From: a virus
Virus record (IMG/VR): IMGVR_UViG_3300046008_000572
Span: 1 to 52,526 of that record
Reading direction: 5' to 3' (one strand)
DNA length: 52,526 nucleotides
Below the pieces are notes generated by a model. The model made no database searches. It saw nothing but the letters and a program-made list of their open reading frames with translations, and was not told the origin of the DNA. Shown piece after piece: positions 25,153-41,134 of the stretch. Positions within the stretch are counted from its first letter, which is position 1. Every line of letters starts with the position of its first letter. The translations under genes were made by a program, and so were the position numbers.

Positions 25153-25180
25153 TTTATACTGAATCTTAAATCGTTTCAAA
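25153..25180 (-). promoter_or_regulatory. Possible promoter for the primase-helicase gene
   Basis: TTTGAA, 16 bp, TATAAA on the minus strand, overlapping the stop of the gene upstream. The 100-bp gap 25066-25165 is otherwise AT-rich and holds a near-palindrome AAATTGAATTTCAATTT. Confidence 0.35.
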
Positions 25181-26152
25181 TGATACCAGTTTATCTTGCC
25201 AACAGGAATCAAAAATTTGACTAAATGCGTTTTTGAATCGTTGTTGATTAGATAACATAGGGTATTGCTCCTCCTGTGCAATTTTATCTATTGTGAATGT
25301 GTGAGGTATAAGATTATCGAATAATTGTTGTATGTCACATAGTGACAGGTCGTAGAGCTTCGTTTTAGTTAACATAGTGTAGGTTTGCATATCTGATAGT
25401 CGTTGGTATCGAAGTCTTAAATAGTCGCACAGTGAAGGGTTCATAATCGATAGTGCATTCACGAAAGAATTGTTTTTAAAATATGACACAGTAAGTTCCT
25501 TGAATACCACATCGTAAGTTGAAATAAATTGTGTCATTTCAAATACGAAATGAGGATTATCTCGCACACAGTTTATAATTTGATTACGAAGGTCGTAAGG
25601 GAGATGTTCGTAGTTAGGGTTCTCGATAACGGTTAAATAGTCCACAACAGAGAGATTAAATTTATCTTTGAATAAGGTGGATAGTGAGGTTGTTTGAAAA
25701 CACACTTCATTTTCGTCGTGACTTATTGAAGAATTATTTTCGATTTTAGATGATTTTGTTTTTTGAATGATTTTTGATGTTTGGGATAATTTCGCATCCA
25801 TATCATTTAGCCTTGTTATTAAAATGTTCACTGTGTTTTTTAACGACACAAATTCATCAGAAGAATTTATATTAACAGGTGTATTCGGGTTATTAGTATT
25901 GTGAAATACAGGGTTAAAGTTAGGTGTGTAAATAGGGTGCTGTTCGTAAACATTGCTCTCAGATACTAGCGTAGATTTTTGAGATAATGCTGGTATCGAT
26001 GTTGATGTGCGAATAAGACTATTGGATAAATACATATTGATTGCTTTAATCAACTCATCATCGAAGTTTTTACCTTCGGATAACACAATTGATTTAAATA
26101 ACTTCACGGTATCGTGACTGTGGTGAAGTCTGTATTGGTGGGATGTTGCCAT
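25166..26152 (-). CDS. Unknown protein beside the iterons, possible initiator or regulator
   Basis: 328 residues. The N-terminus (MATSHQYRLHHSHDTVKLFK) and a helical segment to about 50 are followed by an Asn/Thr/Ser/Pro-rich linker, a coiled coil near 105-140 (LKNTVNILITRLNDMDAKLS) and a mostly helical C-terminal domain. I do not recognise it. Position next to the iteron array, tandem promoters and a complex leader suggest a replication initiator or master regulator. This is inference from context only. Confidence 0.65.
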   Translation of the reverse strand: MATSHQYRLHHSHDTVKLFKSIVLSEGKNFDDELIKAINMYLSNSLIRTSTSIPALSQKSTLVSESNVYEQHPIYTPNFNPVFHNTNNPNTPVNINSSDEFVSLKNTVNILITRLNDMDAKLSQTSKIIQKTKSSKIENNSSISHDENEVCFQTTSLSTLFKDKFNLSVVDYLTVIENPNYEHLPYDLRNQIINCVRDNPHFVFEMTQFISTYDVVFKELTVSYFKNNSFVNALSIMNPSLCDYLRLRYQRLSDMQTYTMLTKTKLYDLSLCDIQQLFDNLIPHTFTIDKIAQEEQYPMLSNQQRFKNAFSQIFDSCWQDKLVSFETI

Positions 26153-26175
26153 TTTATTACCTTCTAAAATGAAAT

Positions 26176-26256
26176 AAGCCCTGAAATAATGTAGTACCAG
26201 TACATTGAATCAAGGCTTTATGAGTTATAAACTCTTTAATTAGATAACTCTGGTAC
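26176..26256 (-). promoter_or_regulatory. Pseudoknotted leader of the 328-residue protein gene
   Basis: GTACCAG/CTGGTAC (26256-26250 and 26200-26194) enclose a GAGTTAT/ATAACTC hairpin and AAGCCTTGA. AAGCCTTGA (26218-26210) can pair with TCAGGGCTT (26184-26176) beyond the first stem, with one G-U pair. The GAAGG ribosome site follows 9 nt later. Only transcripts from the distal promoter would contain the whole structure. Confidence 0.55.
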
Positions 26257-26316
26257 AGTTTAATTAAAGAACTCACTTATGTCAACTATTATTTCACAGA
26301 TTTGACGATTTGTCAA
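26257..26316 (-). promoter_or_regulatory. Tandem promoters next to the iterons
   Basis: Distal: TTGACA, 17 bp, AATAAT with TGA before the -10 (26316-26288). Proximal: TTGACA, 17 bp, TAAACT (26285-26257). Both read on the minus strand. Confidence 0.7.
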
Positions 26317-26362
26317 TAGATGAATTAAGTATCTAAATTGTCATTTTCATATAAGCAATTTT

Positions 26363-26606
26363 TGAATACAGGGTGTATACAGTGAATACAGTTTTGAATA
26401 CAGTGAATACAGAGTGTATACAGTCTGAATACATTGATTTTACTGGGATAGAGAGATTTTGTATTCAAAAATTAGTGTATACAGTGTATTCAGTGTATTC
26501 AGAAAAATATAGGTAGTAAAATGGCTGTAAGCCTTGATATTCGTGGCTTGTAGAGGTTTTTGATAGGTGTATTATTTGAATACACTTTTGAATACACTGT
26601 ATACAC
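26363..26606. repeat. Iteron array, probable replication origin
   Basis: Seven direct copies of TG(A/T)ATACA(G/T) at 26363, 26374, 26383, 26395, 26404, 26415 and 26426, spaced 9-12 bp (about one helical turn). Further copies, some inverted (TGTATTCAG), at 26459, 26476, 26485, 26494, 26576, 26588 and near 26597. Repeats flank the minus-strand tandem promoters and precede an AT-rich stretch, the arrangement of iteron origins. Confidence 0.75.
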
Positions 26607-26690
26607 TTTTTAAAATATAATAAAAATCAATATATAAATTATTATTATATAATTAAATACATATTATATTAAAAACAACTACTTACAAGT
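26607..26690. other. Very AT-rich stretch, candidate DNA-unwinding element
   Basis: About 80 bp almost free of G and C, directly after the iterons. This is where an origin would be expected to open first. Confidence 0.55.
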
Positions 26691-26713
26691 TTCCTCTTTC
26701 TCTCTCCAAATGC

Positions 26714-26734
26714 AAATAAGAATCATTCTTATTT
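26714..26734. promoter_or_regulatory. Perfect palindrome resembling a Fur box
   Basis: AAATAAGAAT-C-ATTCTTATTT, 10-bp arms about one central base. The core GAATCATTC with flanking TAA/TTA is like iron-regulator sites. It could also be a phage operator. Confidence 0.5.
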
Positions 26735-26812
26735 AGAAATTTCCCAGAAATCGACTTTCAAATTGGTACAGATTTTCGATTCACATTTTTCAGAAAATCT
26801 AACGACCTTCAC

Positions 26813-26956
26813 TCAACTAAACAATCCATTCAATAAATCTACGAGTTCAACGAATTCTAAAACTTCTGATGCTTTTGTGGCTAATTTGTAAATTTCGACC
26901 ATCACGTTGAGTGATGGTTTTGTGTCGCTTACTTTACTTAGTGTAATTGTGTTCAT
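26813..26956 (-). CDS. 47-residue hypothetical protein in the origin region
   Basis: MNTITLSKVSDTKPSLNVMV followed by a Leu/Glu-rich helix (SEVLEFVELVDLLNGLFS). AGAGGT lies 7 nt upstream of the ATG. A perfect 8-bp hairpin, ACCATCAC/GTGATGGT, lies inside the coding region. I found no clear promoter. Function unknown. Confidence 0.45.
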   Translation of the reverse strand: MNTITLSKVSDTKPSLNVMVEIYKLATKASEVLEFVELVDLLNGLFS

Positions 26957-27052
26957 AATATATACCTCTTGTGTGAAATTGATTTTCCTAGAAACAGGAA
27001 ATGATTTTTGTACAGATTTTGAATTTGAATTATGCTAGAAACCTAGCCGTAC

Positions 27053-27081
27053 TTGACTTTTTGTTAAATTTGTGAAATAAT
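27053..27081 (+). promoter_or_regulatory. Plus-strand promoter with extended -10
   Basis: TTGACT, 17 bp, AATAAT, with TGTGA just before the -10. The segment AAATTTGTGAAATAATA nearly matches the divergent promoter at 26288-26316. Confidence 0.75.
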
Positions 27082-27092
27082 ACTTGCTAACG

Positions 27093-27200
27093 GTGTGGAA
27101 GCCTGATATTGTAGTAAGAATGTCCTCAAAAGGACTGTATTTTAATAGATTAGATTACAATATCTTTCCACACTTCTATTATTTACAGTCTTTTTGAGGA
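27093..27200 (+). promoter_or_regulatory. Leader RNA that can hide the ribosome site
   Basis: GTGTGGA (27093) pairs with TCCACAC (27167), and GATATTGTA (27105) with TACAATATC (27156). The loop bases TCCTCAAAAGGACTGTA (27123-27139) match TACAGTCTTTTTGAGGA (27184-27200) over 17 bp with one G-U pair. The second segment contains GAGGA, the ribosome site. An alternative is the local hairpin GTCCT/AGGAC in the loop. Confidence 0.75.
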
Positions 27201-27211
27201 TTTTTTTATTT

Positions 27212-27577
27212 ATGGCTACCATCAAATTCACCGATTCAACAACACCTTCTAAATTCACATTGGCTAAGAAACAATACGAGGTTACCTGTGGTCACCAAGT
27301 AACCAACTCAGATTTCCTAAATTTACTTTTAGATGGTTACCTAGTAACCTCAGGTATACCTTCAGAGGTAACCACAGGGTTACCTAGTAACCATACCGAG
27401 GTAACCACGAGTATACCTTCAGGTATACCTTCAGAATTTGTCACTAAATCAGAATACGATTTCGATATGAAACAAATTAGCGATTTTAATAAAACCGCTT
27501 TTGACCACATTAAGAAGATTTACGCCAAACTTTCAAAATTAGAAGCTCCAGTAGATGATATATTCCCAGAATACTAA
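27212..27577 (+). CDS. Small regulator-like protein with repeat-encoded linker
   Basis: 121 residues from the ATG at 27212, GAGGA about 11 nt upstream. Residues 1-45 (MATIKFTDSTTPSKFTLAKK, then TNSDFLNLLLDG) are basic and could be a DNA-binding domain. A Ser/Thr/Pro/Gly linker follows (GIPSEVTTGLPSNHTEVTTS), then a helical, probably coiled-coil tail. The linker DNA is a run of GGTNACC and GGTATACC palindromes. The first gene on the plus strand from the origin, under a strong promoter and a structured leader, it fits an autoregulated repressor or segregation-type protein. No family recognised. Confidence 0.7.
   Translation: MATIKFTDSTTPSKFTLAKKQYEVTCGHQVTNSDFLNLLLDGYLVTSGIPSEVTTGLPSNHTEVTTSIPSGIPSEFVTKSEYDFDMKQISDFNKTAFDHIKKIYAKLSKLEAPVDDIFPEY
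27280..27434. repeat. GGTNACC and GGTATACCTTCAG repeats inside a coding region
   Basis: GGT(N)ACC at 27280, 27290, 27335, 27367, 27378 and 27400, AGTAACC at 27298, 27343 and 27386, and three copies of GTATACCTTCAG near 27353, 27411 and 27423. Many pairs form near-palindromes such as GGTTACCTAGTAACC. Confidence 0.7.
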
Positions 27578-28418
27578 ATTCCTAGGTTTCCTATTTCATT
27601 TTTGCCTGAGTTTTGCATCCAAATTTATTTCGGGGGCTAACGAAGGTTATAAATTTGACCTTCACGCTTCATTCTCCATGTGACCTATACGATTGGGTTA
27701 CTGAGTTTAAACATCGCTTAAATCGAATGCTAGACACCTTAAATCGAGTGTTTTCTAACTTGTTGATTTTATTATCATATTTCAGTTATTGCGGATTGAA
27801 TCGAGTAGGTTATCGCTTGCATACCGCGCCATTGCTGAATTGTGGCTAATTTGTGTGTGACGTGGGTCACGACTTTATCAGTTACTTTCAAAAATGATAG
27901 CTTTGCTTTCAAACTCGATAATGTCGATTCGCTATTATCTAAAACTTTCGCATACAATCATTGTTGCTTTTACAAATGATAGTTTTTCTATCATTACAGA
28001 TAGCAGAATACCAGATGTTAGATGATTTGCGGGTTAGAGTATAACATCATTGAGAAGGCATCAAATTGACCTGTGGTGACGTTTTTAGTCTTACTGGTAT
28101 GTTTGTGTACCTTGACATTCAAACACGTCTTAAATCGAAAATTTTAGCATCTGACGATAATTTTTTTTCGTTATATATAGAGTAAATTTTAATGTTGAGA
28201 ATCACGCCTTGAACTGGTAGAAAAATTAGATTGTTTAAGAGCCTTTGTTGCATTTAATTGTGCTTAGAATGTGAAAATGGCACGATTTGCGGTTTGAAAT
28301 AGTCTAATTTATCCATTAAATTAAACAACGTGGTATTTTGTCGCATGATAAGGTATTGATTTTATTAGGTTTTGGCTTAAATAGTTTTTTTGTTAGTTAA
28401 AACGTGTTTAAAAATAAT
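27578..28418. other. Long non-coding stretch before the small-gene cassette
   Basis: No frame with a ribosome site stands out. Features seen: CTTAAATCGA three times (near 27718, 27741, 28130), AATGATAG three times including a perfect hairpin AATGATAG/CTATCATT at 27975-27995, and several homopolymer runs. It may hold binding sites or an unrecognised RNA. Confidence 0.5.
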
Positions 28419-28446
28419 TTTACAATTGCCTAAAATTCGCTAAAAT
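28419..28446 (+). promoter_or_regulatory. Promoter of the small-gene cassette
   Basis: TTTACA, 16 bp, TAAAAT. The segment ATTGCCTAAAAT inside the spacer occurs again at 36307 next to another TTTACA promoter. Confidence 0.55.
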
Positions 28447-28452
28447 GAATCA

Positions 28453-28619
28453 TGCTCTTTAAAAACTTAAATTTTCCAACAAGCCTTTTGAGTTTGTTAC
28501 CTGTGATACTAGGCACGCGAGTTGTTTTGAATAGGTAGCACACGAAAGGCGTTAAACTATAAAGGCTTATTATATAGGCTTTTATACTTTAACAATTCAA
28601 CTATAAAAGGCGGTAAAAA
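28453..28619 (+). promoter_or_regulatory. Long structured leader with competing pairings
   Basis: AAGCCTTTT at 28481 can pair with AAAGGC at 28545, AAAGGCTT at 28561 or AAAAGGC at 28605; the last overlaps the ribosome site. GTTAAA-C-TATAAA near 28551 also forms a 12-bp imperfect stem with TTTATA-C-TTTAAC. The pairings exclude one another, as in a switch. Confidence 0.45.
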
Positions 28620-28760
28620 ATGAAAACGAAATCACAGTTCCAACGTCACGTTAGACGGTTACAAGTTTTGTATTTTAAACAACAACAGAATTTTAGCCCT
28701 GTAGCGTGTTTTACACGATTAAGGCTGATGCAATTATTTATGTTAAATTCACAGAATTAA
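28620..28760 (+). CDS. 46-residue basic peptide
   Basis: MKTKSQFQRHVRRLQVLYFK, strongly basic N-terminus, then a hydrophobic C-terminus. AAGGCGG precedes the ATG by about 8 nt. First gene of the 28.6-30.7 kb cassette. Function unknown. Confidence 0.5.
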   Translation: MKTKSQFQRHVRRLQVLYFKQQQNFSPVACFTRLRLMQLFMLNSQN

Positions 28761-28780
28761 TTTTAAAAGGGGTAAGAAAA

Positions 28781-28879
28781 ATGTTAGATAAAATTATGGT
28801 AAAAGTTTTTGAAGTAATTGGATTCGGCTTGATTGCCATTATTAGTGTGGTTGTTGTCGATGTTATGGTGATATTATGA
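28781..28879 (+). CDS. 32-residue membrane peptide
   Basis: MLDKIMVKVFEVIGFG then a Val/Ile-rich span. AGGGGTAAG lies upstream, and the stop overlaps the next start (ATGA). Probably single-pass membrane. Function unknown. Confidence 0.55.
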   Translation: MLDKIMVKVFEVIGFGLIAIISVVVVDVMVIL

Positions 28880-29001
28880 TTGCTGGATTATTAGCAGTTT
28901 GCTGTGTTATTGGTATTGTTAGCGGATTCTACAGAATCGCAGCTAACATTGTAAAAACAAACAACGCACTCGATTATAGTGCGTTCAACGATTCAATTTA
29001 A
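28876..29001 (+). CDS. 41-residue membrane peptide
   Basis: MIAGLLAVCCVIGIVSGFYR is a membrane span; the rest is polar. Coupled to the gene upstream by ATGA overlap. Two small membrane peptides in a row could form a lysis-control or superinfection function, which is speculation. Confidence 0.55.
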   Translation: MIAGLLAVCCVIGIVSGFYRIAANIVKTNNALDYSAFNDSI

Positions 29002-29016
29002 AAAGAGGATAAGAAA

Positions 29017-30697: not shown

Positions 30698-30728
30698 AAG
30701 GCTTGCATGATGCAAGCCTTTTTTTTTG
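30698..30728 (+). terminator. Strong intrinsic terminator
   Basis: AAGGCTTGCAT and ATGCAAGCCTT form an 11-bp stem with a 1-base centre, followed by nine T. It ends the 28.4-30.7 kb cassette. Confidence 0.9.
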
Positions 30729-31549: not shown

Positions 31550-31604
31550 TTGACAAACAACCGTATAATGTGATAGCTTTATGTAACTATTACATTATAC
31601 GGTT
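31550..31604 (+). promoter_or_regulatory. Promoter region with an 18-bp palindrome before TerS
   Basis: TTGACA at 31550 with a poor -10 (GATAGC) at 17 bp. A near-perfect 18-base inverted repeat, AACCGTATAATGTGATAG and CTATTACATTATACGGTT, spans 31559-31604 and ends 6 nt before the start codon. It could be an operator over the promoter or an RNA hairpin over the ribosome site; I see no normal ribosome site. Confidence 0.55.
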
Positions 31605-34418: not shown

Positions 34419-34447
34419 TTGACATTTATCAATAAATATGAAATAAT
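34419..34447 (+). promoter_or_regulatory. Promoter of the HNH-AP2 gene
   Basis: TTGACA, 17 bp, AATAAT with TGA before the -10. It begins 4 nt after the TerL stop. Confidence 0.75.
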
Positions 34448-40941: not shown

Positions 40942-40970
40942 TTGACACTGTGATTATAGTGTGAAATAAT
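40942..40970 (+). promoter_or_regulatory. Promoter with extended -10
   Basis: TTGACA, 17 bp, AATAAT with TGA before the -10. It reads into a structured region that ends at a terminator before any plus-strand gene. Confidence 0.75.
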
Positions 40971-40976
40971 TACCTC

Positions 40977-41134
40977 CAGTTAAGATTATCTTTTTCTAGC
41001 AATAGATAAGATAATCTTATTAAGAATTCTAAACAGAGTTTTTAATAAGATTTCATAGTCTTGGTTTGTTCTCATTTTTAGTCCTCCTACACTCGACCCT
41101 TTAATAATTAAAACTGTTAAAGGGTTTCTTTTTA
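40977..41134 (+). ncRNA. Candidate small RNA antisense to a short peptide gene
   Basis: From the promoter at 40942 transcription should start near 40977. Hairpins AAGATTATCTT/AAGATAATCTT (40982-41018) and CTTATTAA/TTAATAAG (41016-41049; they share three bases) follow, then a terminator ACCCTTTAA/TTAAAGGGT (41096-41125) with TTTCTTTTTATT. The RNA of about 155 nt contains no plus-strand gene. Confidence 0.5.
40986..41075 (-). CDS. 29-residue basic amphipathic peptide
   Basis: MRTNQDYEILLKTLFRILNK followed by IILSIARKR; basic, with hydrophobic residues on one face. GGAGG lies 7 nt upstream of the ATG, stronger than most genes here. It lies entirely opposite the candidate small RNA, as in type I toxin-antitoxin pairs. 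I found no clear minus-strand promoter. Confidence 0.4.
   Translation of the reverse strand: MRTNQDYEILLKTLFRILNKIILSIARKR

Follow-up and report, generated by a model that had tools for sequence, protein, structure and literature searches.

A predicted long-range helix over the ribosome site in the leader of a phage gene adjoining the replication region

The leader of the first rightward gene beside a phage replication region raises the question of whether pairing within the RNA controls this gene, and whether such pairing would work as a switch. The window analysed is the whole stretch of 52,526 nt in phage record IMGVR_UViG_3300046008_000572 (52.5 kb, 35.7% G+C), in which the leftward genes serve replication and nucleotide metabolism and the rightward genes serve packaging and structure. 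An iteron array at 26363-26610 is flanked by two divergent promoters, and the leader of interest is that of the first rightward ORF (Table 1). The place beside an origin claimed in the original prediction is supported as a position next to this array and the divergent promoters.

Table 1. Features of the leader and of the ORF that it precedes, in window coordinates
Feature	Position	Strand	Evidence and remarks
Predicted sigma-70-type promoter	27053-27081	+	TTGACT-17-AATAAT, TG before the -10 element; 10/12 matches
S1 5' arm, with CCU bulge 27102-27104	27092-27115	+	Sequence; crossing-helix scan; first in growing-transcript folds
Possible 25-aa leader ORF, ATG...TGA	27120-27197	+	Stop overlaps ribosome site; no Shine-Dalgarno of its own
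Alternative small hairpin P2, GTCCT-CAAA-AGGAC	27122-27135	+	5 bp, -5.8 kcal/mol
S2 5' arm (anti-Shine-Dalgarno segment)	27123-27139	+	TCCTCAAAAGGACTGTA; sequence and folding
S1 3' arm	27154-27174	+	Sequence; growing-transcript folds; crossing-helix scan
S2 3' arm, ribosome site within	27184-27200	+	TACAGTCTTTTTGAGGA; sequence and folding
Shine-Dalgarno-like GAGGA	27196-27200	+	11 nt ahead of ATG; unpaired probability ~0.0003 at 37 C
Seven-T run directly 3' of S2	27201-27207	+	Terminator geometry; one of only 5 such + strand runs
Controlled ORF, 121 aa	27212-27577	+	Without known family; linker encoded by GGTNACC/GGTATACC repeat array

From its promoter, the transcript is expected to start near 27088, so that S1 would open the RNA at about +4. 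This predicted start lies upstream of 27123, beyond which a start had been named as evidence against the pairing. The promoter core TGTGAAATAAT is repeated at equal spacing, divergently at 26316-26288 and again at 40942-40970. More broadly, the phage has four near-identical promoters of the form TTGAC-N-TGTGAAATAAT, at 26288-26316 (-), 27053-27081 (+), 34419-34447 (+) and 40942-40970 (+). The copy at 34419 carries TATGAAATAAT, and the promoter at 40942 also precedes a stretch with strong folding (z -5.5, hairpin at 41013-41052). A promoter scan found no promoter for an antisense RNA in the leader.

Two long helices, S1 and S2, can be drawn in the leader. A base-by-base check confirmed the long-range pairing that had been proposed, whose coordinates were right to within 1-2 bases: S2 consists of 17 bp, 16 of them Watson-Crick and one an internal G-U (27132 x 27191). 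It is lengthened by G27122-U27201; some eight further pairs in the minimum-energy fold join the 27113-27120 side to the 27202-27209 side with one mismatch, bringing the helix to ~26 predicted bp. S1 is a two-part stem, 27092-27101 pairing with 27165-27174 and, beyond the CCU bulge, 27105-27115 with 27154-27164; the S2 5' arm is located in its loop, again in agreement with the earlier description. The S2 3' arm has GAGGA as its last five bases; this is the one plausible ribosome site of the ORF and forms a duplex of -6.0 kcal/mol with the 16S tail; the start codon is the ATG at 27212-27214. The arms of S1 and S2 do not overlap and are separated by spacers of 7, 14 and 9 nt, and judged from the sequence it is conceivable that the two helices form together as an H-type pseudoknot. 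A second complement to the S2 5' arm (to 27125-27138) occurs 1.3 kb downstream at 28479-28492 (ACAAGCCTTTTGAG), possibly by chance.

This structure is far stronger than expected for RNA of such composition. The minimum free energy of the leader was -43.5, compared with -22.6 +/- 3.1 in 200 dinucleotide shuffles (z -6.7), none of which reached the observed value. The crossing score of S1 with S2 was -61.2 against -20.1 +/- 3.9 in shuffled sequences, the best of 400 shuffles scoring -32.8, and the pair ranked first among crossing pairs on both strands genome-wide, where the best of three shuffled genomes reached -46.9. Compared with 42 other gene starts, whose folding z-scores ranged from +2.1 to -4.1, the leader was an extreme outlier at -7.5. 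In the crossing-helix scan, the score of this place was only -40 on the minus strand, versus -61 on the plus strand, because in sense RNA the non-Watson-Crick pairs (the internal one of S2 and the wobbles of S1) are G-U. This asymmetry modestly favours function in the sense RNA. With GAGGA inside the highly non-random S2, sequestration of the ribosome site, which had been the main regulatory claim, is borne out as a very likely property of the leader.

Whether the leader can also alternate between states was addressed by folding transcripts of increasing length. S1 together with P2 (-27.5 kcal/mol) was the best fold until the transcript reached about 27196, and the masking fold was dominant by 27202. 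The energy of the best fold was -36.3 kcal/mol at 27202, -41.7 at 27214 and -47.0 at 27230, placing the masked fold ahead of S1 plus P2 by about 9-20 kcal/mol (8.8-19.5). Because the masked fold is better by this amount once the site has been transcribed, the default state is OFF. Refolding through nested intermediates would have to cross a barrier of ~24-25 kcal/mol, which a crossing (pseudoknot) route would bypass. The cost of opening the ribosome site falls from 17.8 kcal/mol at 25 C to 15.4 at 37 C and 13.8 at 45 C; an RNA thermometer was ruled out, as the site stays closed over the physiological range and requires 11.7 kcal/mol even at 55 C.

These energies alter the proposal of a translational on/off switch operated by the GTCCT/AGGAC hairpin. 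The hairpin exists and forms earlier, together with S1, but it cannot alone free the site, which in the S1 plus P2 state still needs 3.8 kcal/mol to open. Sequestration and an earlier alternative fold thus stand, but the two states are not balanced, S1 plus P2 being the weaker by the margin given above. The leader is a default-off structure that needs kinetics, cleavage or a factor for expression, and a reversible on/off switch is unproven.

The preferred reading, to which about an even chance is given, is that a cis-acting leader, through masking by S2 and perhaps with attenuation, leaves the 121-aa gene OFF in the default state. According to this reading, the first ~124 nt of the rightward transcript would act as a cis-acting 5' leader in which, by computed folding, S1 and P2 form first during RNA synthesis. 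Once 27184-27200 has been transcribed, the loop segment is predicted to pair as S2, burying the Shine-Dalgarno sequence at equilibrium. Expression would then be confined to a short interval before S2 closes, or would come from RNAs that fail to form S2 or lose it, through cleavage or a bound phage or host factor. With seven U residues after S2, the same helix may also halt some transcription, masking and attenuation working jointly. The leader has the hallmark of a masking leader, a helix over the Shine-Dalgarno sequence in the stable fold that leaves it almost never unpaired (Table 1). Against this explanation, the Shine-Dalgarno spacing is long, at 11 nt, and it would be unusual for a leader simply to be off, a release step being essential and absent from the account. 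If the reading is right, RNA control would extend to a gene of a phage replication region, beyond the few textbook cases, and a single helix would be positioned against both transcription and ribosome binding.

The seven-T run, which the original prediction did not mention any more than the suitability of S2 for RNase III, makes attenuation a serious rival to masking, or a partner mechanism. As a rival, the leader would be mainly a transcription attenuator, S2 and the U7 tract forming an intrinsic terminator, S1 plus P2 (or a factor holding that fold) giving read-through, and masking being secondary; this is possible but doubtful. The T run starts at the base of S2, a base that is G+C-rich (UCCUC/GAGGA) as in an intrinsic terminator with its U run directly after, and only 5 runs of at least seven T occur on the plus strand of the 52.5 kb. 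P2 shares the 5' arm of S2 and forms first. However, the S2 loop of 44 nt is far from the short apical loop of a terminator, while the clear terminator of this phage, at 30719, has a perfect hairpin with a short loop, followed by T9. Furthermore, the arms of S1 do not overlap those of S2, so that exclusion of one helix by the other would be merely topological. A terminator scanner did not list S2, although it allows only loops of 3-8 nt.

A cleavage model, in which S2 and its extension are cut by RNase III to release the ribosome site, is unlikely, although such unmasking is documented for adhE and lambda cIII (PMC5371410). The near-perfect long helix of the minimum-energy fold exceeds the ~20 bp or more expected of a substrate. 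S1 forms earlier, though, and may block the long helix, and a cut in S2 would leave very little RNA 5' of the ribosome site. Also quite unlikely is a wider reading in which the divergent transcripts constitute a replication-control module whose protein dose is set by RNA folding with no repressor, S2 serving as terminator and mask and a phage factor providing release. Its basis is the promoter core common to both transcripts and the long-range loop pairings in both leaders.

It is improbable that the inverted repeats act in DNA, binding a protein or extruding at the replication region, with the RNA pairing incidental. True DNA repeat arrays are nearby, namely the iterons and the in-gene GGTNACC sites, and these also score in the crossing-helix scan, but the arms of S1 and S2 differ from the iterons, and their mismatched positions are G-U pairs when read in the transcribed sense. 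Moreover, the structure begins only a few bases from the predicted start of the transcript, and its end coincides exactly with the ribosome site and T run. Leader-peptide control is very improbable; here an ORF ending at TGA 27195-27197 would be translated, and the terminating ribosome would melt S2 and couple translation to the gene, for which plasmid repY-repZ and tap-repA are the models. The frame is open across the whole leader and its stop overlaps the ribosome site, but the ATG at 27120 has no Shine-Dalgarno sequence, and 18% of shuffles contained an open frame of this length and 3.7% such an ATG ORF; the 25-aa ORF is probably due to chance. Equally remote is a 5'-end stabiliser or put-like antitermination RNA on both divergent early transcripts, with RNA polymerase or decay as its target: the same promoter core starts both, structured RNA lies at both 5' ends, and the minus leader carries two perfectly complementary 7-nt loops, but the two leaders are unlike in sequence, whereas putL and putR of HK022 have a common sequence with two stem-loops of ~70 nt (PMC9378689), and the cover of the ribosome site by S2 would be left unexplained.

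In its predicted working the leader resembles described ribosome-site-masking leaders and metastable mRNAs. No Rfam family matched at the gathering threshold, and a permissive threshold gave only spurious eukaryotic microRNA and snoRNA models; the leader is best read as a default-off leader of a generally known kind that falls outside the named RNA families. In type I toxin mRNAs such as hok and H. pylori aapA3, sequential co-transcriptional folds end in a very stable one that buries the Shine-Dalgarno sequence (PMC6733600). The present leader resembles them in its metastable early fold and default-off state. It differs in that the strand that masks belongs to the leader, upstream of the site, and not to the 3' end; in addition, no toxin matched the 121-aa product, and the scan showed no antisense promoter in the leader. 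Crossing helices and a gene beside DNA-replication functions recall the autogenously repressed leaders of T4 gene 32 and E. coli rpsO. The gene 32 pseudoknot, however, is placed 67 nt ahead of the start codon, where it nucleates the binding of gp32 without itself masking the ribosome site (PMC3014915), whereas the second helix here contains that site.

As in lambda cIII and adhE, the ribosome site lies within a long helix, cleavage here being a matter of predicted suitability only. In the SAM-II and preQ1 pseudoknot riboswitches, the region of the ribosome site is bound by an upstream segment that lies in a 5' stem's loop, an arrangement found here too; the present helices are far longer (17-21 bp), do not match Rfam, and precede a gene that suggests no ligand. 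The leaders of plasmid repZ and repA likewise adjoin a replication region, are structured, and may include a short ORF ending at the ribosome site, but they involve an antisense RNA and an initiator, for which no counterpart or homology was seen here. Furthermore, the repZ pseudoknot activates, in contrast to the repressing pairing of this leader. The pairing is very probably a built-in control, of a broadly known kind, on a gene beside the replication region.

Relatives were sought by protein, by DNA pattern, and among annotated phages and plasmids and bacterial genomes. The sole near-identical copy, IMG/VR 3300046005_001038 (L001), has zero differences over 25433-28614 and therefore gives no independent evidence for the pairing. 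Relatives found by TerL include one sibling (L010, 87%), whose contig starts just beyond the position equivalent to the leader. Two distant loci checked in detail (L017 and L018; TerL 64%, primase 34%) lack the 121-aa gene and have different origin repeats. No diverged relative carrying the leader was found by any of these searches, and the pairing is represented by a single lineage. Four other exact matches to the S2 3' arm (L005-L007, L009) were discarded as unrelated loci. A modest wider lesson is that strong regulatory folds may exist in phage leaders without Rfam matches, and conservation-based searches miss them because few relatives have been sequenced.

The description of the gene as regulator-like was not supported. 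Its 121-aa product had no significant Pfam or PHROG match, and collections of phage, plasmid and bacterial genomes yielded no relative apart from the identical copy. Structure models of both flanking proteins were uninformative (mean pLDDT ~40); a ribbon-helix-helix N-terminus in either protein is an impression. Within the gene, a palindromic array of GGTTACC, GGTAACC, GGTCACC and GGTATACC at 27280-27430 holds 8 of the genome's 9 such sites, and may serve in DNA as an origin or centromere-like site while also encoding a protein linker. The array recalls lambda, in which the origin lies inside gene O.

Upstream of the divergent gene on the minus strand (25166-26152, encoding a 328-aa protein), the leader contains two hairpins with fully complementary 7-nt loops, GUACCAG and CUGGUAC (26250-26256 and 26194-26200, - strand). 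A loop-loop pair is possible, although three distinct pairs of this kind per strand occur genome-wide and it is therefore unexceptional; the loops could instead be DNA half-sites, as L017 has TTGGTACCAA iterons. When origin-iteron regions of relatives were compared (L017 5750-6160; L018 6060-6160), gene order was the same and the iterons were wholly different: TGWATWCA in the array described here, TTGGTACCAA in L017 and GTGTGTCACA in L018. Further rightward, a perfect 18-bp hairpin with one G-U pair (31559-31604) ends 5 nt upstream of the small terminase start codon, with TTATT after it; at this site the hairpin of the sibling L010 is only short. Finally, a long gene-poor stretch separates the replication region from the first rightward genes (27578-29016; L010 136-1226; L018 5950-7400). 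It shows little sequence similarity across relatives, yet the short motifs GGCTAACGA and ACTGGTAG are common to them, and the stretch at 27578-29016 could harbour an undescribed RNA or replication element.
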